Positions 9,494 to 24,271 of a stretch of 64,000 nt of DNA are shown one piece after another. The DNA lies in the NCBI RefSeq assembly GCF_024666595.1, contig NZ_CP088296.1, forward strand, positions 2,346,501-2,410,500. Reading direction: 5' to 3'. The first letter of the stretch is position 1. Every line of letters begins with the position of its first letter. Below the pieces are notes generated by a model. The model was not told where the DNA came from and made no database searches. It saw only the letters and a program-made list of their open reading frames with translations. A program made the position numbers and the translations under genes. Source of the stretch: Sphingomonas sp. J315 (GTDB lineage: Bacteria > Pseudomonadota > Alphaproteobacteria > Sphingomonadales > Sphingomonadaceae).

Positions 9494-11251
9494 TTACAGG
9501 CCGAGGTCGCGCTTGCGGCCCAGCGTCCAGTCGATGCCGCCACCGGCGTGCACGACGCCGGATACCTGCCGGCCGAGCTGCTGTTCGAGGGTGCTGGCCC
9601 AAGGCACGAGCCGGAAACCAAGGCCGTCGTCGAGCATGGCGAAACGGCCGGACGCGAGCGCAAGCCGCTGGCGGACGACGCCGATGATCTTCTCGCCGCC
9701 TGCGGCGGGGCGGTAGGCAAGCCCGGTCTCGCCGGCGATCTTCGCGCCGACCGAATCCAGCTCGCGCTTGCGCAGCGTGTCGAGCAGCCCGCGTTCGAAC
9801 ACGGTGCGTTCGCCGTAGCGACGCGCCAGCCCTTCCTTGACGAGATGATCGGTGCGCGCGTCCATCGCGCGGCGCACCTCGGCGCCGAACCCGCCGTCCA
9901 CCACGCCGGCGCCGCGCTCGATCAAGCGATGGTCCAGCCAGGTCGCGCCAGGCGCCTTGACCTGCGCGGCAAGGTCGAGGTCCGAGCGGGTGGCGAGCAC
10001 CAGCGTCGGCTTATCCTCGCCGGGTCGTCCGATCGCCCGAAGCTCGACGATGCCACCGAGCTTCGGGCTATGCTCGAGCGCCTCGATGCCGGGCAGGCGG
10101 ACATGGTGGGTGCGGCCATCCGTGCCGTCGATCACGGCATAGGCGGTGCCGGCCAGCTCGTCGTGCAATCCCTTGTCGATGAGCCGGCCGGCGATCGGCT
10201 TCTCGGGAGCGCCGCTGACGACGGCATAGCTGTCGAGCGGCCGATCCTGCCCGCGCTCTTTAAGCGCCGCGCCGATCGTGCGGATGATGTCGCCGCGCGT
10301 CCCCAGGTCGCGCAGCTTCGCCGCCGCGCCTTCGGCGACCGCCCATCGTCCCGGCTCCCCTTCGGCCGCGAGTCCCATCGTTTCCAGATGCTGCAACCGC
10401 CCGACCATCAGCCGGCGAAGACGCGGGTCGTCCGGGCCGGGCCGCTCGGCGCGCAGGTCGATCACGCCCAGCTCGTCGGCGGCGCGTCCGATCTCGCCGT
10501 CGAGCCGCGTCCAGCGCTCGGCCGTCACCTCGCGGTCCAGCGCACGTTGCACCTCATGTTCAGGCTTCGGCCCCAGCTCGGCGAACGCCAGCTCCTCGGC
10601 GCGCGAGCGCAGGTTGTGGCTGATGTAGTCGCGGGAGATGACGAGGTCGCCGCCCTGGTCGTTGACGCCGCGCACGAGCAGATGGACGTGCGGATTGTCG
10701 GTGTTCCAATGATCGACCGCGACCCAATCCAGCCGCGTCCCCAGGTCCGACTCCATCTGGCGAACGAGGTCGCGGGTATATTCGCGAAGGTCGGTCAACT
10801 CGGCTGCGTCCTCGGGCGACACGATGACCCGGAAGTGATGCCGGTCATCCTTGCACCGCTCGGCGAAACCGCGATCGTCGGCACGGTCGCCATGTTCATC
10901 GAACATGCGCGTGGACGAGCCGTCGCGAGTGACGCCTTCGCGCTTCAGATAGGCGATGTGCGCGGACAGCGGCGCCATACGTCGCCCGCCACGGCCTCGG
11001 GTGGCGACGGGCAGCATCTTGACGATGACGCGCCGGCCAGAACCGAACAGGCGGTTGCGCGCGAACGCCGTGCGCCCCCGGCCGAAACTGGACTGACCAC
11101 CCCGGCGCGACGCGCCGCCGCTGCGCCGCCCGCCGCTATGGATCGCGGCAACCCGTAGCACCTCGGCCACCAGGCCGCGCGCATTGCGGCCCTGCGCCTT
11201 GCTGCGCTTGGCCTTGCCGGGCCGGACGCGGAAATCGCTGTCCTTGCTCAC
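9494..11251 (-). CDS. Relaxase/mobilisation nuclease (DUF3363, RlxS-like)
   Basis: The relaxase nicks oriT and leads the single strand into the recipient. The 585-residue protein starts at a GTG (11251). It has a basic, Gly/Arg-rich N-terminus (to residue 90), a candidate catalytic Tyr at about residue 101 (AHIAYLKREG), HHF at about 138-140 and the metal-binding HVH at about 188-190 (NPHVHLLVRG). A long C-terminal DUF3363 region follows. This is the architecture of the relaxase of ICEMlSymR7A-like elements. The upstream intergenic gap holds a candidate oriT. Confidence 0.88.
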   Translation of the reverse strand: MSKDSDFRVRPGKAKRSKAQGRNARGLVAEVLRVAAIHSGGRRSGGASRRGGQSSFGRGRTAFARNRLFGSGRRVIVKMLPVATRGRGGRRMAPLSAHIAYLKREGVTRDGSSTRMFDEHGDRADDRGFAERCKDDRHHFRVIVSPEDAAELTDLREYTRDLVRQMESDLGTRLDWVAVDHWNTDNPHVHLLVRGVNDQGGDLVISRDYISHNLRSRAEELAFAELGPKPEHEVQRALDREVTAERWTRLDGEIGRAADELGVIDLRAERPGPDDPRLRRLMVGRLQHLETMGLAAEGEPGRWAVAEGAAAKLRDLGTRGDIIRTIGAALKERGQDRPLDSYAVVSGAPEKPIAGRLIDKGLHDELAGTAYAVIDGTDGRTHHVRLPGIEALEHSPKLGGIVELRAIGRPGEDKPTLVLATRSDLDLAAQVKAPGATWLDHRLIERGAGVVDGGFGAEVRRAMDARTDHLVKEGLARRYGERTVFERGLLDTLRKRELDSVGAKIAGETGLAYRPAAGGEKIIGVVRQRLALASGRFAMLDDGLGFRLVPWASTLEQQLGRQVSGVVHAGGGIDWTLGRKRDLGL

Positions 11252-11364
11252 GGCCAGACCGCTTTCGGCCGAAATTGGCCTATGGTGCCATTCGACGCGC
11301 TGTTTTTACTGACTTTTCCCTTCCGCGCGGCACGCGCGCCGACCGACGCCCCCATGTGAAGCCA

Positions 11365-11415
11365 CGGAAAAGCCCCGGCTTTTCCGCGAAACGGGGTGCG
11401 GCTTATATCTTGCCC
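11365..11415. other. Candidate origin of transfer (oriT) upstream of the relaxase gene
   Basis: The 237-base gap between relaxase and transglycosylase genes contains a perfect 10-bp inverted repeat (CGGAAAAGCC-CC-GGCTTTTCCG, 11365-11386). It is followed 18 bases later by TATATCTTGCCC (11404-11415). The latter differs by one base from the TATCCTGCCC nick region known for IncP-type plasmids. Placement directly upstream of the relaxase, with a stem beside a nick-like motif, is the usual oriT layout. No nick site is demonstrated. Confidence 0.5.
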
Positions 11416-11488
11416 TCGCACTTCCCCCTGTTTCCTGCCCTCCCGGTTCCCTTCTCGAATCCGGCGGCCGATCGGGAGCGAGCGCCGA

Positions 11489-12400
11489 TCATTGCTGTCG
11501 GCCCGCGCGGGCGCGGGGGACGAACAACGTATCCGCCTGCGTGTCCGGTGACGAAGAAGCCGCACTCTCTTGCGCTTCGGTGGCGCGCGCCACGACCGAT
11601 CCCGGCGCATCGGATGTGTCGTCCGATTGCGCGGCGGACGGCGCGGACCCGCTGCCGGTAATGCGGACGAATAGCGCCGCACGACGCCACGCGAAGCGGT
11701 CCGGCGGCGCACTCACCGCTGTTTCGGCCGCTCCCCGCGCGCGGACTACGGCTGTAAGCTGGGCGAGGTAGCTGACCGTCTCGGCGGGCAGCGGACGGCC
11801 TCGCGATACATAGTCGTCGTAACGCCCCGGTCCGGCATTATAGGCCGCCAACATCGCGCTCGCGTTGCCGTAGCGGTCGTGCATCTCGCGCAGATAAGCC
11901 GCACCCGCCATGATGTTGTCACGCACGTCAAACGGGTCCGGGCCGAGACCGTAACGGGCGCGCAGCCCCGCCCAGGTCGCGGGCATGATCTGCATCAGTC
12001 CCATCGCGCCAGCCCGCGAGACGGCGCGCGAATTGCCCCGGCTTTCGACGCGCATGACCGCCCATATCCACGCTTCGGGAATCCCGAACCGCCGCGCGGC
12101 GTCGGCGACATGACCGGCATAGGGATGTGCAGCGGCCGGGGCGGCAACGGGCGCTTCTTGCGCCCAACCAGCTCCCGGCGCAGCGCCCCCGGACAGCAGG
12201 ACGGCGGTAAGCAATATGGCCGATCCGACTCCGCTTCGCCGCCAGCCTGCCAGCGTGCTCGCTGCGGTAAAGGGTGCGCGCGAAGCGCCGGCCTTCGGCC
12301 GCCCTTGACCTTCGCTGCGCGCTCCGGCCGGCCTGCGACCGAGCGGGACGGAGGGATGAGACGGCTTTCCCGCGAACAAAGGGATGATGGGGAAGCGCAC
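11489..12400 (-). CDS. Lytic transglycosylase of the transfer region (VirB1-like)
   Basis: This is a periplasmic peptidoglycan lyase that opens the wall for the conjugation channel. The SLT core lies in the middle (YAGHVADAARRFGIPEAWIW, catalytic Glu in AVMRVESRGNS, then GAMGLMQIMPATWAGL and AYNAGPGRYDDY). A hydrophobic export segment (VGSAILLTAVLLSGGAAPGAG) precedes it, but about 50 residues from the chosen GTG start at 12400, so the true start may be further in. The GTG lies four bases after the DUF736 stop. The C-terminal tail is Ser/Ala-rich and unconserved. Confidence 0.8.
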   Translation of the reverse strand: MRFPIIPLFAGKPSHPSVPLGRRPAGARSEGQGRPKAGASRAPFTAASTLAGWRRSGVGSAILLTAVLLSGGAAPGAGWAQEAPVAAPAAAHPYAGHVADAARRFGIPEAWIWAVMRVESRGNSRAVSRAGAMGLMQIMPATWAGLRARYGLGPDPFDVRDNIMAGAAYLREMHDRYGNASAMLAAYNAGPGRYDDYVSRGRPLPAETVSYLAQLTAVVRARGAAETAVSAPPDRFAWRRAALFVRITGSGSAPSAAQSDDTSDAPGSVVARATEAQESAASSSPDTQADTLFVPRARAGRQQ

Positions 12401-12404
12401 CGGA

Positions 12405-12740
12405 TCAGTCCTGCTCGCGCGACTTCGGCTGGCGGTTCCAGCGCAGCGACCAGGCCGATTTGTCGTTCGCGCTCTGGAACAGCGCGGCGCGGATCGGTTG
12501 CGCGAACGCGGGGTCGTCGATGCGCAGCGAGACGTAATCGCCAGCGCGCTCGCCGGTCTCGTTCCATCCGGCGCCGATCTCGGGGCCTTCACCCCCGTCG
12601 CCGCGGTGGACGCGCCAGTCCGGCGCCCTTTCGGCGTCGGTCGGGTCGGCGGGAACGATCGAGATGCGGATGTCGAGCGTCGCTGTCTCGATGATGCCTT
12701 CATAGCCGTTGGCGGTGCGGAAAAAGCTGCCGATCTGCAT
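12405..12740 (-). CDS. DUF736 family protein (first copy)
   Basis: This 111-residue protein is of the DUF736 family, common on proteobacterial conjugative elements and of unknown biochemical role. The family signature is visible at the start (MQIGSFFRTANGYEGIIETA), in the middle (DWRVHRG..GPEIGAGW) and in YVSLRIDDPAFAQPIRAALF. The ATG at 12740 is preceded by AAGGA at good spacing. It sits between traF and the transglycosylase gene. A second, diverged DUF736 gene is at 17483-17782. Confidence 0.85.
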   Translation of the reverse strand: MQIGSFFRTANGYEGIIETATLDIRISIVPADPTDAERAPDWRVHRGDGGEGPEIGAGWNETGERAGDYVSLRIDDPAFAQPIRAALFQSANDKSAWSLRWNRQPKSREQD

Positions 12741-12775
12741 GGGAATGTCCTTTCGTTTGGCGGGTTGGATGCGGG

Positions 12776-13333
12776 TCAGGACCGGGCGGCACGCCACGTC
12801 AGCGGCGCTTCGGGGTCGTCGCGGGTGAGGATCGGGATCGCGCGGCCGAGCACGGTCGAGGCCGGCAGCGGCCCGAAGTAGCGCCCGTCCAGGCTGTCGG
12901 GATGATCGGGATTGAGCAGCAGCAGCTCGCCTGCTGCGAGCGTGCGGCAACCTTGCCACGCGGGCAGCGGACGGCCGATCCGGTCACGGATCACGGCGAC
13001 GGCAACCGCCCGTCCATCAACGCTGACCGTCACGCCGATCCGACACACGCGCTGCCCGGCCTTGGCGGAGACGTGCTTCAAGAGCGGTACGTCCTCGCCG
13101 AGATAGCCGCGCTCGGCCAGCCATTGGCCGAGCCGCTCGGGCGGCGTGACGGCGACCAGCGCGCCGACTGGTGGATCGCGTTCCGGCTCTATCCGGTAGA
13201 GGCCGAGCGGTGCGCTGGCGCTGGCGTTCCAGATGAGGCGCGGCAGCGGGTCAAGCACCGCAACGGCGGTGAACGACACGGCGAACAGCGACGCGGCGGC
13301 TGTCGTCGCGATGGTCCATCCACGGCGCGTCAT
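12776..13333 (-). CDS. traF: Conjugative transfer signal peptidase TraF (S26 family)
   Basis: TraF is a membrane-anchored S26 serine protease that matures and, in the RP4 system, cyclises the TrbC pilin. The 185-residue protein has one N-terminal membrane helix (residues 8-28) and a candidate catalytic Ser at residue 40 (NASASAPLGLY, the SxPxGLY motif). A Lys at about residue 86 (VPLLKHVSAKAGQRVC) completes the Ser-Lys dyad, and LLLLNPDHPDSLDGRYFG lies near the end. The ATG at 13333 overlaps the DUF2840 stop as ATGA. Confidence 0.88.
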   Translation of the reverse strand: MTRRGWTIATTAAASLFAVSFTAVAVLDPLPRLIWNASASAPLGLYRIEPERDPPVGALVAVTPPERLGQWLAERGYLGEDVPLLKHVSAKAGQRVCRIGVTVSVDGRAVAVAVIRDRIGRPLPAWQGCRTLAAGELLLLNPDHPDSLDGRYFGPLPASTVLGRAIPILTRDDPEAPLTWRAARS

Positions 13334-13836
13334 CCTTCGATCTCCCGGCGTTTGAGCCAGGCGCGATGACGCTCCAGCGTATAGGGGCGCGGCTGATGTC
13401 CGGCGGCGATGCGGTTGGCGACGTGTCGCCAGTGATCCGGTGCGGCGTCGCACGGATCGACGCCCGCGGCCTCCGCCGCGTCGATCGCGGCGAGAACCTG
13501 ACTGACTTTGGGCCAGCCCTCGATCTTGAGCAGGATTTCTCCGCCCGGTCGCACGAACGGAAGCGTCGTGAACGGCTCGTCCGCGTCGACCGCGCGCACG
13601 ATGTCGATGCGCGAGCTGACCGTGCCGTAGTCGTTCGCCGCCCAGCGGACGAAGGCGAAGATCGCGCCAGGCCGGAAGCGGACGATGCGGCGGCGGCGAT
13701 CGACGATCTCGTCGGCGGCGACGCGGCCGAATCTGATCCAGTGCTCGATCCGCTTCTCGATCCAGGTCAGTTCAACGCGAGTCATGCCGTCGTCGGACGG
13801 CTGGCGGTGACGCATGGGTGACGGCGGGACGGTCAT
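13330..13836 (-). CDS. DUF2840 family protein
   Basis: This 168-residue soluble protein is of the DUF2840 family, found almost only between the excisionase-like gene and traF in this type of element. Its core begins TRVELTWIEKRIEHWIRFGR and continues with RFRPGAIFAFVRWAANDYGT. No catalytic motif is recognisable and no function is known. The ATG at 13836 overlaps the upstream stop and its stop overlaps the traF start, both as ATGA, so it is translationally coupled. A shorter start at the Met before TRVEL is possible. Confidence 0.82.
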   Translation of the reverse strand: MTVPPSPMRHRQPSDDGMTRVELTWIEKRIEHWIRFGRVAADEIVDRRRRIVRFRPGAIFAFVRWAANDYGTVSSRIDIVRAVDADEPFTTLPFVRPGGEILLKIEGWPKVSQVLAAIDAAEAAGVDPCDAAPDHWRHVANRIAAGHQPRPYTLERHRAWLKRREIEG

Positions 13837-14099
13837 CGCCGGCTCCGGGCGATGGCCGAATCCGCGCGCGGCATGAGGTCGTCCTGACCCGGATCGGAGG
13901 TCGAGTGCTTGATGCCGATGTCGGCCCAGGCCCGCAGGTCATCGACCGAATAGACGACGCGACCGCCGATCCGGCGGTAGGCGGGGCCGGTGCCGAAGTA
14001 GCGGTGCTTCTCCAGCGTGCGGCCAGAAAGGCCAAGGAAGCGTGCGGCTTCCGGCGTGCGCAGGAAGCGGGGCGGTAAGTTGGTGGGCGTATCGGACAA
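13833..14099 (-). CDS. Small HTH excisionase-like protein (RdfS-like)
   Basis: This small winged-helix protein of the AlpA/MerR-like class has the core RFLRTPEAARFLGLSGRTLE followed by KHRYFGTGPAYRRIGGRVVY. That pattern is typical of excisionases (recombination directionality factors). By position it corresponds to RdfS of ICEMlSymR7A, which drives excision. I chose the TTG at 14099 (88 residues). It is preceded at seven bases by a strong AGGAG, whereas the longer frame beginning at an upstream ATG has no ribosome site. The promoter should lie in the 128-base gap below the FseA-like gene. Confidence 0.78.
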   Translation of the reverse strand: MSDTPTNLPPRFLRTPEAARFLGLSGRTLEKHRYFGTGPAYRRIGGRVVYSVDDLRAWADIGIKHSTSDPGQDDLMPRADSAIARSRR

Positions 14100-14227
14100 G
14101 TGACGGCTCCTGCGGACGTTGGCGGCAGGAGGCGTAATTGTCAGAATGGAAGCGGCCGGGTGGGGTATGAAGATGTGCGGCTGCGCGGATGTGACCACCC
14201 CCGCAACTGGGTGCCCGGGTGGGCGTT
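14100..14227 (-). promoter_or_regulatory. Intergenic region expected to carry the excisionase-gene promoter
   Basis: This 128-base gap separates the FseA-like gene from the RdfS-like gene. In ICEMlSymR7A the corresponding region is where FseA activates rdfS transcription. It holds the AGGAG ribosome site and GGGTGG/CCACCC blocks that could pair, but I see no clear -35/-10 pair. That would fit an activator-dependent promoter. The assignment is by synteny only. Confidence 0.4.
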
Positions 14228-15011
14228 TCAGCGGATGCGGAGCAGCTTGCGGTAGTCGCCTTTCATCATGGCGATGCCATCACGGACCAGCCGAACCACA
14301 AACGACCGGGACGCTGACATTTTCCAGTCGCTCGCGGAGAGCTTGGTCGCGTCCTCGCGCCCCAGCTCGACCGCGATCTGGCGATAGGTTGCACCACCAT
14401 CACGCAAATCAAGGGCGCGGAGGATCAGGTTTAGGCGGGCTAAGCGATAGGGTGTGAGCGGCCAGCCGCGCGGCAACGGTCCGGCCTCCCGGCCGAGCAA
14501 CCGGCGATGGAAGCGCAACAGGCTGGCGATGCGGGTAACGAAGTCCCGGTCGAGCGGGACGATAGCGGCGAGCGGTCGGCCGGGGGTCGGGTCACGCAGC
14601 CATAACCGATGCTCGCCGGCTGCGTCGGCGACGATGACGTGGCGCCCGTCGATCCCCGCCAGGTCCGCGAGAAGCGCGCCGAGCGAGTGCGGATCGACCG
14701 GCTGAGCGCTCGCAAATCCGTCCGGGGCCGCGTCGAGAATGACCGTCACGGCGGACAGTTCCGGACGCCAGATGATGGGGTCGGTCAGGTCATCGGGCGC
14801 CGTGGCGAAAGGATAACCCCCAGCGCCGCGCGAACGCCGACTCGGCGGCGTTCTTCGCGACGGCGCCGCTCGCGATGCGCTGCTGCATCTGCGTATATTC
14901 GGCGCGATAGGTGCGGTTTCGTCGAAGAAACTCGGCGGCTATGTCGGCGCGCCCGAGCGCGTCGGACAGACCGCCGGCGCGTCGCTGGCGACGCCCAGGC
15001 GGCGTCGGCAT
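14228..15011 (-). CDS. FseA-like excision activator (DUF6499-DUF2285), joined by +1 frameshift at UUU-C
   Basis: Two overlapping frames together encode one DUF6499-DUF2285 protein. The first runs from the ATG at 15011 (GGGAGG five bases upstream) and reads EFLRRNRTYRAEYTQM...FARRWGLSF before stopping at 14790. The second continues ATAPDDLTDPIIWRPELSAV and then the DUF2285 HTH-like domain (LTPYRLARLNLILRALDLRD) to 14228. They join at plus-strand 14807-14810, where codon 68 UUU can slip one base to UUC, giving 260 residues in all. In ICEMlSymR7A the homologous pair msi172/msi171 is fused by exactly this tRNA-Phe UUU-to-UUC slip to make the excision activator FseA. That the same event occurs here is inferred from the aligned site. 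The unshifted product would be 73 residues. Confidence 0.82.
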
Positions 15012-15157: not shown

Positions 15158-15445
15158 CTAACCTTTTAACGGCTGTTCGCAGCCGAGCAGATGCGCGTAG
15201 CCGATCTCCGTCATCCACCTTGCGCGCGCAAGATGGCTCTCATGCATCGCCTTCGCCCGATCGGGTTCGGCAGTCACGTCGATGCCGAACACCGACGCAG
15301 CCGCCTGACGCCAATCCGCCCCTTCGGCATCGGCATCGAGGAGGCGCAGATAGTCGGCAAGGTGGCTTTCGTCGTATGGTGTGAGTTGCGCCGCCTCCGG
15401 CACGCGGTCCTCGAATTGACATCTGCTCATGGCGTGCCCCGTCAT
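15158..15445 (-). CDS. Small DUF2285-like protein, probable QseM-type antiactivator
   Basis: This 95-residue protein follows the DUF2285 pattern on its own. LTPYDESHLADYLRLLDADA, then GADWRQAA, then SHLARARWMTEIGYAHLL align in layout with LTPYRLARL.., GATYRQIA and the closing YRKLL of the FseA-like protein. In ICEMlSymR7A the small DUF2285-fold protein QseM binds and blocks both TraR and FseA, and is transcribed divergently from qseC, as here. The antiactivator role is inferred from family and position. The start could be the ATG at 15445 or the in-frame ATG at 15430. Confidence 0.7.
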   Translation of the reverse strand: MTGHAMSRCQFEDRVPEAAQLTPYDESHLADYLRLLDADAEGADWRQAAASVFGIDVTAEPDRAKAMHESHLARARWMTEIGYAHLLGCEQPLKG

Positions 15446-15588: not shown

Positions 15589-15601
15589 CAGTTTGCCGCG
15601 C

Positions 15602-15829
15602 ATGGACATGCGCCGCCTCGTGGGATTGAACTTTGCCAGGCTGAGAAAGGATAAGGGCTTTACCCAGGAGCGCTTTGCGGAGACGTCGGGCTTTACGCAG
15701 CAATATGTCAGCGATCTGGAGCGGGGCCGACGTAACCCGACTGTTGTCACCTTGTTTCACCTGGCCTCGGCGCTTGGCGTCACGCCCGCCGATCTGGTGG
15801 CCGAAGTCGACCCGTCCGAGACTGACTAG
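15602..15829 (+). CDS. XRE/Cro-CI family repressor, QseC-like
   Basis: This 75-residue protein is essentially one lambda-repressor-like HTH (LNFARLRKDKGFTQERFAET, recognition helix region TQQYVSDLERGRRNPTVVTL, then ALGVTPADLV). Size and divergent placement beside the DUF2285-like gene match QseC, the repressor that sets the on/off state of qseM in ICEMlSymR7A. I prefer the ATG at 15602; a TTG at 15593 is also in frame. There is no Shine-Dalgarno sequence upstream, so the message may be leaderless, as in restriction-modification controller proteins. Confidence 0.75.
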   Translation: MDMRRLVGLNFARLRKDKGFTQERFAETSGFTQQYVSDLERGRRNPTVVTLFHLASALGVTPADLVAEVDPSETD

Positions 15830-16830: not shown

Positions 16831-17094
16831 TCTGACCTCCTTGGGCTTGGGTTTCCGCGCAGCGGAGCGCCGCGCTGAAACCCTGCCCGTCGGCGAGACC
16901 GGGGGTGCAACCGGAGTGGGCGGCTTCGCGGGGAACCGGCTGCACGGAACGCGCTCGCGCGTGGAGGAAGCTGGGCGGAAGCGCTCCGAAGGGCGCTGGG
17001 GGCAGCGCCCCAAGCACCGCGCCGGCCAAGGCGCCAGCAAACAGTTCTTGCCATTTGTTCTTGTTTTGATCCAAACGAGCCGCAAGGAGTCGGT

Positions 17095-22520: not shown

Positions 22521-22538
22521 AGGGAGGAGTGAAGCGTG

Positions 22539-24236
22539 ATGACCGGCGCCGCCCCGCGACGAGATGAGGATGAGGCGCCGGTCGTGGCGACCGCCCGTGC
22601 CGCGCTCTACCTGCGCGTTTCGACCGGCCGGCAGGCCGAGAGCGACCTGTCGATTCCCGATCAACGCCGCCAGATTGAAGGCTATTGCTTGGCGCGAGGT
22701 TGGGAAGTCGCGGCCGAGTTCGTCGAGCCGGGCAATACCGCGACCGACGATCGCCGACCTGCCTTTCAAGCCATGATCGACGCGGCGATAACCAAGCCGC
22801 CGACGTTCACCGTCATCGTGGTTCACAGCTTCTCACGGTTCTTCCGCGACCAGTTTCAGTTCGAGTTCTACGTCCGCAAGCTCGCGAAGAACGGGGTGAA
22901 GCTCGTCTCGATCACGCAAGACCTGGGCGACGATCCGATGAGCATCATGATGCGCCAGATCATGACGCTGTTCGACGAGTATCAGTCGAAGGAGAACGGC
23001 AAGCACACGTTGCGGGCGATGAAGGAGAACGCCCGGCAAGGCTTCTGGAATGGCGCGCGGGCGCCGATCGGCTATCGCGTGGTTGCGGCCGGCGAGCGCG
23101 GCGCGAAGATCAAGAAGAAGCTGGAGATCGACCCGATCCAGGCCGAGACGGTGCGGCGCATCTACCGGATGGCGCTGAACGGCGTCGATAATCGGGGACC
23201 GATGGGCCTCAAGGCCATCGCGAGCTGGCTCAACGAGAACAACATCCGCACCCGCGACGGCGGGCGCTGGGGTTTGGGCGCGGTCCATCAGGTGCTCACC
23301 CGCACGACCTATATCGGCCAGCATCGCTTCAACACTCGCGATCACAAGACGAGGACGCCGAAACCGGAAAGCGAGCACGCCGTCATGGAAGTGCCGGCGA
23401 TCGTCTCGGAAGCCGAGTTTGAGGCGGTCCAGCGCTCGCTCAAGGCGCGCAGCCCAAAGATGATGGCGCCGATGGCGGTGGGCGGCCCGACGCTGCTCAC
23501 CGGCATCTGCTTCTGTGCGTGCTGCGGCGGCGCGATGACGCTGCGCACCGGCACCAGCAGCGTCGGGCGCGAGTATCGCTATTATACCTGTTCGACGAAG
23601 GCGCGGCAGGGCGCCACCGGCTGTCCCGGCATCACCGTTCCTATGGATCGGCTTAATGAGGCCGTGGTCGATCATCTCGAAGCGCGGCTACTCGACCCGG
23701 CGCGGCTCGAAGCTCTGATGAATCAGATCCTCGAACGCCGCGACGAGTGGGTGAATCAGCGCCGCGAGCATGTCGTCGATCTTGAGCGACGCGCGACCGA
23801 GGCGGAAGCCAAGCTTAAGCGGCTTTACGACGCGATCGAGAATGGCGTCATCGACGTAAGCGATCCGTCGCTCAAGGATCGCATCGCCGAGCTGACCGCG
23901 ACGCGCGACCAGGCCAAGGGAGATTCTGAGCGCGCACTTGCCCATATCGTGAAGATCGGCCCGGCGATCACGCCGGAGAGCCTGCGCGCCTTTGCAGCCG
24001 CCCTGAAAAAGAAGCTGCGGAACGGCGACGGCACTTTCGCCCGCGATCAGGTGCGGGCGGTCGCCCAGCGGGTCGAGGTGGTCAGCCGGAAAGAGGTCCG
24101 TATTCGCGGCCTGCGCAGCGAGCTGCTCCGAACGCTAACCGCCGCCTCTGGCGTAGAGGCGGCGGTGCTAGGCGTTCGTGCCTTTGAACCGAAATGGCGC
24201 GCCCGGCAGGATCTGAACCTGCGGCCCCAAGCTTAG
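22539..24236 (+). CDS. Large serine recombinase (ICE integrase) ending inside tRNA-Arg
   Basis: This 565-residue site-specific recombinase has a serine-resolvase domain with catalytic Ser28 (ALYLRVSTGRQAESD), then a Recombinase domain (PIGYRVV..., GRWGLGAVHQVLTRTTYIGQ). A zinc ribbon (CFCACCGGAMTLRTG...YYTCSTKARQGATGCPG) and a coiled-coil C-terminus follow. The last dozen residues (RARQDLNLRPQA) and the stop at 24234-24236 are read from the complement of the tRNA-Arg gene. The stop TAG overlaps the anticodon positions. The ATG at 22539 has GGAG upstream. It is the only recombinase in view and the likely enzyme for integration at this tRNA. Confidence 0.88.
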   Translation: MTGAAPRRDEDEAPVVATARAALYLRVSTGRQAESDLSIPDQRRQIEGYCLARGWEVAAEFVEPGNTATDDRRPAFQAMIDAAITKPPTFTVIVVHSFSRFFRDQFQFEFYVRKLAKNGVKLVSITQDLGDDPMSIMMRQIMTLFDEYQSKENGKHTLRAMKENARQGFWNGARAPIGYRVVAAGERGAKIKKKLEIDPIQAETVRRIYRMALNGVDNRGPMGLKAIASWLNENNIRTRDGGRWGLGAVHQVLTRTTYIGQHRFNTRDHKTRTPKPESEHAVMEVPAIVSEAEFEAVQRSLKARSPKMMAPMAVGGPTLLTGICFCACCGGAMTLRTGTSSVGREYRYYTCSTKARQGATGCPGITVPMDRLNEAVVDHLEARLLDPARLEALMNQILERRDEWVNQRREHVVDLERRATEAEAKLKRLYDAIENGVIDVSDPSLKDRIAELTATRDQAKGDSERALAHIVKIGPAITPESLRAFAAALKKKLRNGDGTFARDQVRAVAQRVEVVSRKEVRIRGLRSELLRTLTAASGVEAAVLGVRAFEPKWRARQDLNLRPQA

Positions 24237-24271
24237 AAGGCTCGTGCTCTATCCAACTGAGCTACGGGCGC
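24195..24271 (-). tRNA. tRNA-Arg (anticodon TCT), ICE attachment site
   Basis: A full cloverleaf of 77 bases includes an encoded CCA. It has acceptor GCGCCCG/CGGGCGC, D arm GCTC..GAGC, anticodon arm CGAGC-CTTCTAA-GCTTG with anticodon TCT, and T arm GCAGG-TTCAGAT-CCTGC. The T loop reads A57-G58 where A58 is nearly universal. The 3' half overlaps the end of the serine recombinase gene on the other strand, marking the right junction of the element. A duplicate 3' fragment is expected at the unseen left end. Confidence 0.92.

Follow-up and report, generated by a model that had tools for sequence, protein, structure and literature searches.

A conserved +1 frameshift site in a sphingomonad fseA homologue that lies near a large serine recombinase

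FseA of the Mesorhizobium element ICEMlSymR7A is encoded in two halves, DUF6499 (msi172) and DUF2285 (msi171), that are joined by a +1 frameshift. A 2015 PNAS paper is said to describe, for R7A, a slip of tRNA-Phe at UUU-C between msi172 and msi171. Another +1 frameshift is that of RF2 (prfB), which is autoregulatory, uses tRNA-Leu and has a stop codon after the slip codon. FseA-like genes with a conserved +1 site have been reported from alpha-, beta- and gamma-proteobacteria in the sections of PMC10359603 that we consulted, and the consulted sections of PMC5009743 and PMC11963761 give the same account of FseA. Frameshifted FseA across proteobacteria is therefore already in print, and the sphingomonad locus described below adds to a known kind.

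We analysed a 64,000-nucleotide stretch of DNA from Sphingomonas sp. J315, hereafter the window, whose features are collected in Table 1. The junction of the two fseA frames is TGG GGG TTA TCC TTT C, which reads UGG GGG UUA UCC UUU CGC in frame 0 and UUC GCC in the +1 frame, and the slip UUU is codon 68. An earlier note on this DNA had claimed a DUF6499 frame ending at 14790, a homologous reading resumed in the +1 frame at this very junction, and a 260-residue product. The ORFs and the Pfam E values agree with the first claim, the sequence reads as the second says, and the predicted protein with the shift placed at UUU-C is indeed 260 residues long. A search of a 5.8-billion protein collection showed, among the best 120 of 272 matches, annotated C-terminal domains only, none of them with PF20109. 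The gene product P0001 gave no match to solved structures at E values up to 1. As judged from the sequence, both frames belong to a single fseA homologue, whose +1 frameshift site is genuine and strongly conserved.

Table 1. Features of the fseA region and of the element end in the window.
Feature	Position	Strand	Basis or remark
fseA part 1, DUF6499 (PF20109), frame 0, 73 codons	14790..15011	-	ORF and Pfam (E 4.8e-18); start ATG 15011, GGGAGG just upstream
fseA part 2, DUF7012 + DUF2285 (PF22792, PF10074), +1 frame	14228..14809	-	ORF and Pfam (E 2.3e-33 and 3.1e-34); +1 frame stop at 14228
+1 frameshift site TGGGGGTTATCCTTTC: SD-like TGGGGGTT, slip codon TTT 14810-14808, then C	14807..14822	-	
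qseM homologue, lone DUF2285 domain (PF10074)	15158..15445	-	QseM 7uqt, E 1.6e-16
XRE-type HTH gene, divergent from qseM, at the qseC position	15593..15829	+	QseC identity suggested by position only
rdfS homologue (HTH_17), TTG start, GCAGGAG at 14113-14107	13833..14099	-	RdfS 8dgl, E 1.7e-10
Conserved block upstream of rdfS, GGGTGG-N31-CCACCC	14158..14200	-	Candidate FseA-binding region
Transfer genes: DUF2840, S26/TraF-like peptidase, DUF736, SLT transglycosylase, DUF3363 relaxase	9494..13836	-	
Large serine recombinase (Resolvase, Recombinase, zinc ribbon)	22536..24236	+	Likely integrase of the element
tRNA-Arg	24195-24271		Overlapped by about 42 bases by the serine recombinase 3' end

The likeness to FseA that the earlier note had claimed is supported: the slip site, its position and the domain content fit the description of FseA in the consulted sections of PMC10359603, and the neighbouring genes match QseM and RdfS of ICEMlSymR7A by sequence. 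By the same description, ICEMlSymR7A also encodes WGL with UGGGGG, beside its shift site. The helix motif of part 1, AAEFLRRN, retains 7 of the 8 residues of the published AWEFLRRN, the conserved Trp being replaced by Ala. The comparison with RF2 is one of design only. Both genes have an internal Shine-Dalgarno-like (SD-like) sequence just upstream of the slip, but in fseA the slip codon is not followed by a stop codon, the slipping tRNA is tRNA-Phe, the spacer is longer, and the two genes are not homologous.

Scanning genome contigs with peptide patterns placed outside the junction, we found 47 related loci (L034-L080) with 38 distinct sequences. Their hosts are mostly sphingomonads, along with records titled Nitrobacter, Prosthecomicrobium and Enterovirga and MAGs called Phreatobacter, Magnetospirillum and Methylobacterium. 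All 47 have the identical slip context TGGGGGTTRTCYTTTCG and change frame at the same TTT-C, and the changes inside the slip site among them are synonymous only. Third-position variation was followed in 27 clusters, formed from 32 distinct gapless sequences including the window, with seven loci below 70% nucleotide identity excluded. This variation obeys frame 0 up to the UCC codon and the +1 frame from the GCC codon onward, including the codons that precede GTG 14749, the first ATG, GTG or TTG of the +1 frame. The genome of the window holds three other DUF6499 loci, two split at TTT-C (L002, L003) and one fused (L004). No indel separates fseA from its counterpart in the nearest relative, L034, to which 5798 bases align at 99.1%. 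The alignment to it is gapped at its end, at 16952-16981, and the G-runs at 14197 and 11423 are one base shorter than in L034, which may be a real difference or an under-called run.

In the wider family, DUF6499 was found in 72 of 296 genomes of an order sample, 25 of 385 of a class sample and 43 of 398 of a phylum sample, the samples overlapping and including the window's own genome. The resulting 228 loci, a raw count with duplicates included (L001, for example, is the window's copy), comprised 172 with a +1 shift, 45 fused, one with a +2 shift and 10 unresolved. Homologues in one continuous frame, which the earlier note had weighed against its own reading, are thus absent from the 47 close relatives but do occur further out, as 45 of the 218 classified loci; the brake would therefore be dispensable in the wider family. 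These fused genes are no argument against frameshifting, because the consulted sections of PMC10359603 report only about 61% of 4709 FseA homologues as split.

Codons were counted only in loci that have the TGG-GGN anchor, which removed 9 +1 and 13 fused loci. The fifth codon is TTT in 159 of the 163 anchored +1 loci, with C as the next base in 149 and T in 10. The remaining four (L098, L183, L214 and L216), read by eye, have TTT-C one codon later. The TTT-T variant, 10 of 163 with duplicates included, is still a tRNA-Phe +1 slip. We noted TTT-T in place of TTT-C in L154, L029, L086, L095, L121, L144, L150 and L172. In L179 and L192, WGL is followed by a pair of closely spaced TTT codons, which makes the slip codon ambiguous. 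For codon statistics, representatives below 90% identity were taken (119 split and 29 fused genes). The split genes use TTT for 116 of 117 Phe codons at this site, compared with 30% in the rest of these genes; the corresponding figures are 81 of 119 and 15% for GGG, and 66 of 113 and 12% for TTR. The corresponding numbers for fused genes are 3 of 7, 7 of 29 and 7 of 23. With the identity limit set at 60%, the codon excess in split genes is still strong, while the contrast in GGG between split and fused genes weakens to p of about 0.1.

A surplus base in this one genome, through sequencing or assembly error or in a decaying pseudogene, would also break the frame. The two G-runs outside fseA that differ from L034 by one base speak for such an error, and the assembly may contain other one-base errors on their account. 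Within fseA, however, the break recurs in every one of the 47 relatives, the window's genome has two further loci split alike, both frames are constrained up to the junction, and L034 aligns without an indel. We therefore reject assembly error as the cause of the frame break and regard the whole explanation by error or decay as extremely improbable. As far as sequence can tell, the break is not the sequencing artefact that would have refuted the earlier note, since separate assemblies carry the same TTT-C. The two frames may otherwise be imagined as two separate proteins, DUF6499 alone and a DUF2285 part with a start of its own, e.g. at GTG 14749, from which a 173-residue frame retains nearly all of DUF7012 and DUF2285. 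We consider this very unlikely, since the codons from the slip site to that GTG are under +1-frame constraint, TTT-C is conserved well beyond what codon usage would give, and the fused homologues show both domains working as one chain. A restart at the ATGA overlapping the frame-0 stop was also considered and rejected: its ATG lies in the third frame, and with GTG 14749 as the first +1 start, a restart at the junction cannot yield the +1 product.

The SD-like site near the slip codon is conserved. Its pairing beats synonymous shuffles in split genes, where 66 of 119 fall in the best 5%, but not in fused genes, where 5 of 29 do, as computed with what we take to be the anti-SD tail; neither a pattern nor the Rfam model matched the host's own 16S tail. 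We dropped the idea that longer pairing between GGGGGUUAUCC and the 16S tail is a general rule, because the fourth codon varies beyond the close clade. To allow for relatedness, we used a tree of 136 representatives. At least 6 switches between the split and the fused state fall on its well supported branches, and the best tree has 11. Split state did not significantly predict GGG on this tree (6 pairs, 1.4 vs 1.5). The counts alone would clearly make the SD-like site a mark confined to split genes, but we set this reading aside, as it was not significant on the tree.

In the consulted sections of PMC10359603, UGGGGG is suggested to stall ribosomes so that QseM can bind. The frameshift would then be real, with the SD-like UGGGGG pausing ribosomes for capture by QseM and not for promotion of the slip. 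Scoring QseM in flanks of 1 to 1.5 kb, which can miss qseM, we found GGG in 60 of 72 split representatives with QseM and in 21 of 47 without it, as capture would have it. The fused genes point the other way, with GGG in only 1 of 6 near QseM, most of these six being one related group, and in 6 of 23 without QseM; on the tree, QseM did not significantly predict GGG (10 pairs, 2.8 vs 1.1). Capture in place of slip promotion therefore appears rather unlikely, though it deserves to be taken seriously, and the site may serve both roles together.

Our preferred explanation, in which we have high confidence, is an fseA homologue that is completed by a +1 slip at UUU-C and is predicted to activate rdfS and to be restrained by the QseM homologue. 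Most ribosomes would stop after 73 residues. A minority would pause over the internal SD-like UGGGGGUU and slip +1 at UUU-C, where tRNA-Phe would shift its pairing from UUU to UUC, and these would complete the 260-residue DUF6499-DUF2285 activator. Its expected targets are rdfS, next to fseA, and the transfer genes that follow rdfS, while the lone DUF2285 protein from upstream, the QseM homologue, would keep the activator in check. In this way the frameshift would brake excision of the element.

The conserved block upstream of rdfS is kept in 36 of the 38 distinct sequences and absent from L068 and L072. In the published FseA box, inverted hexamers separated by 15-16 bp precede rdfS. A CCACCC-N16-GGGTGG at 14222-14195 fits this spacing, but its left arm is unconserved, and the conserved pair is 31 apart; the candidate box in the region upstream of rdfS was not matched to the published one. 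Beyond the DUF3363 relaxase lie TraG and trb-type genes. A TrbE-like frame at 3976-5310 matches its Pfam model only weakly and looks short against the length that we presume for the TrbE family, and may be one of the other one-base breaks that the earlier note mentions.

The element ends at the tRNA-Arg, after which chromosomal genes follow (gyrA-like, SAICAR synthetase). In a search for the far border of the element, allowing up to 3 mismatches in 24 bases, the tRNA-Arg 3' end had no second copy in the genome. To the left of the window, L230 3731-11780 has cargo ORFs that resemble, by eye and from ORF starts, an RND-type efflux operon with a MerR-type regulator. Where ICEMlSymR7A-type circuits have a tyrosine integrase, this element has the serine recombinase at its end, and the nearest PF00589 match to fseA in the window's genome is more than 400 kb away. 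We examined 28 close fseA copies (at least 61% identity over the C-terminal part, from 24 genomes chosen from the 47 loci), with pairing to recombinases and distances both worked out by hand. A PF07508 recombinase lies 5.7-21.4 kb from 26 of them, always upstream and divergent; the two copies without one nearby are G1021:C8 and G1026:C67. In a PF00589 search of eight of the serine-recombinase genomes, a tyrosine recombinase lies just past the serine one in G1030 and G1039, and the other six had none within 80 kb among the matches listed.

The circuit of the ICEMlSymR7A type also includes a TraI-type AHL synthase. None lies within the present element, and the genome's two are both more than 500 kb from this fseA, each about 1 kb from another FseA-family locus (at 902836 and 2960109). 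These loci span G000:C1 902836-904668 and 2958376-2960249, the first with a tyrosine recombinase about 3 kb off. According to the consulted sections of the literature, the tyrosine recombinases also include IntG and IntM, rdfS occurs in some alphaproteobacterial ICEs that have no obvious intS (PMC5882170), and serine recombinases occur in five IMEs and one ICE of 79 Mesorhizobium ICEs/IMEs (PMC8627217). Among the open-licence papers listed, no title or abstract beginning describes FseA or RdfS with a serine integrase, in a search for rdfS weakened by matches to the plural of RDF. It is quite possible, if not quite probable, that in this sphingomonad ICE clade a frameshift-limited FseA/QseM switch without its own AHL synthase commands excision by a large serine integrase, while AHL synthases adjoin other members of the FseA family in the genome. 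The RdfS homologue would then be the directionality factor of this integrase or the activator of its gene.

In sphingomonad elements, the putative translational brake on FseA is thus conserved at the level of single bases, and the codon-level evidence points to selection of UUU-Y at the slip position, mostly as UUU-C with a UUU-U variant. What differs from the studied case is that this fseA has no AHL synthase nearby and adjoins a large serine recombinase. An excisionase circuit studied with tyrosine integrases would be paired with serine integrases in these elements, a putative arrangement that is worth testing.
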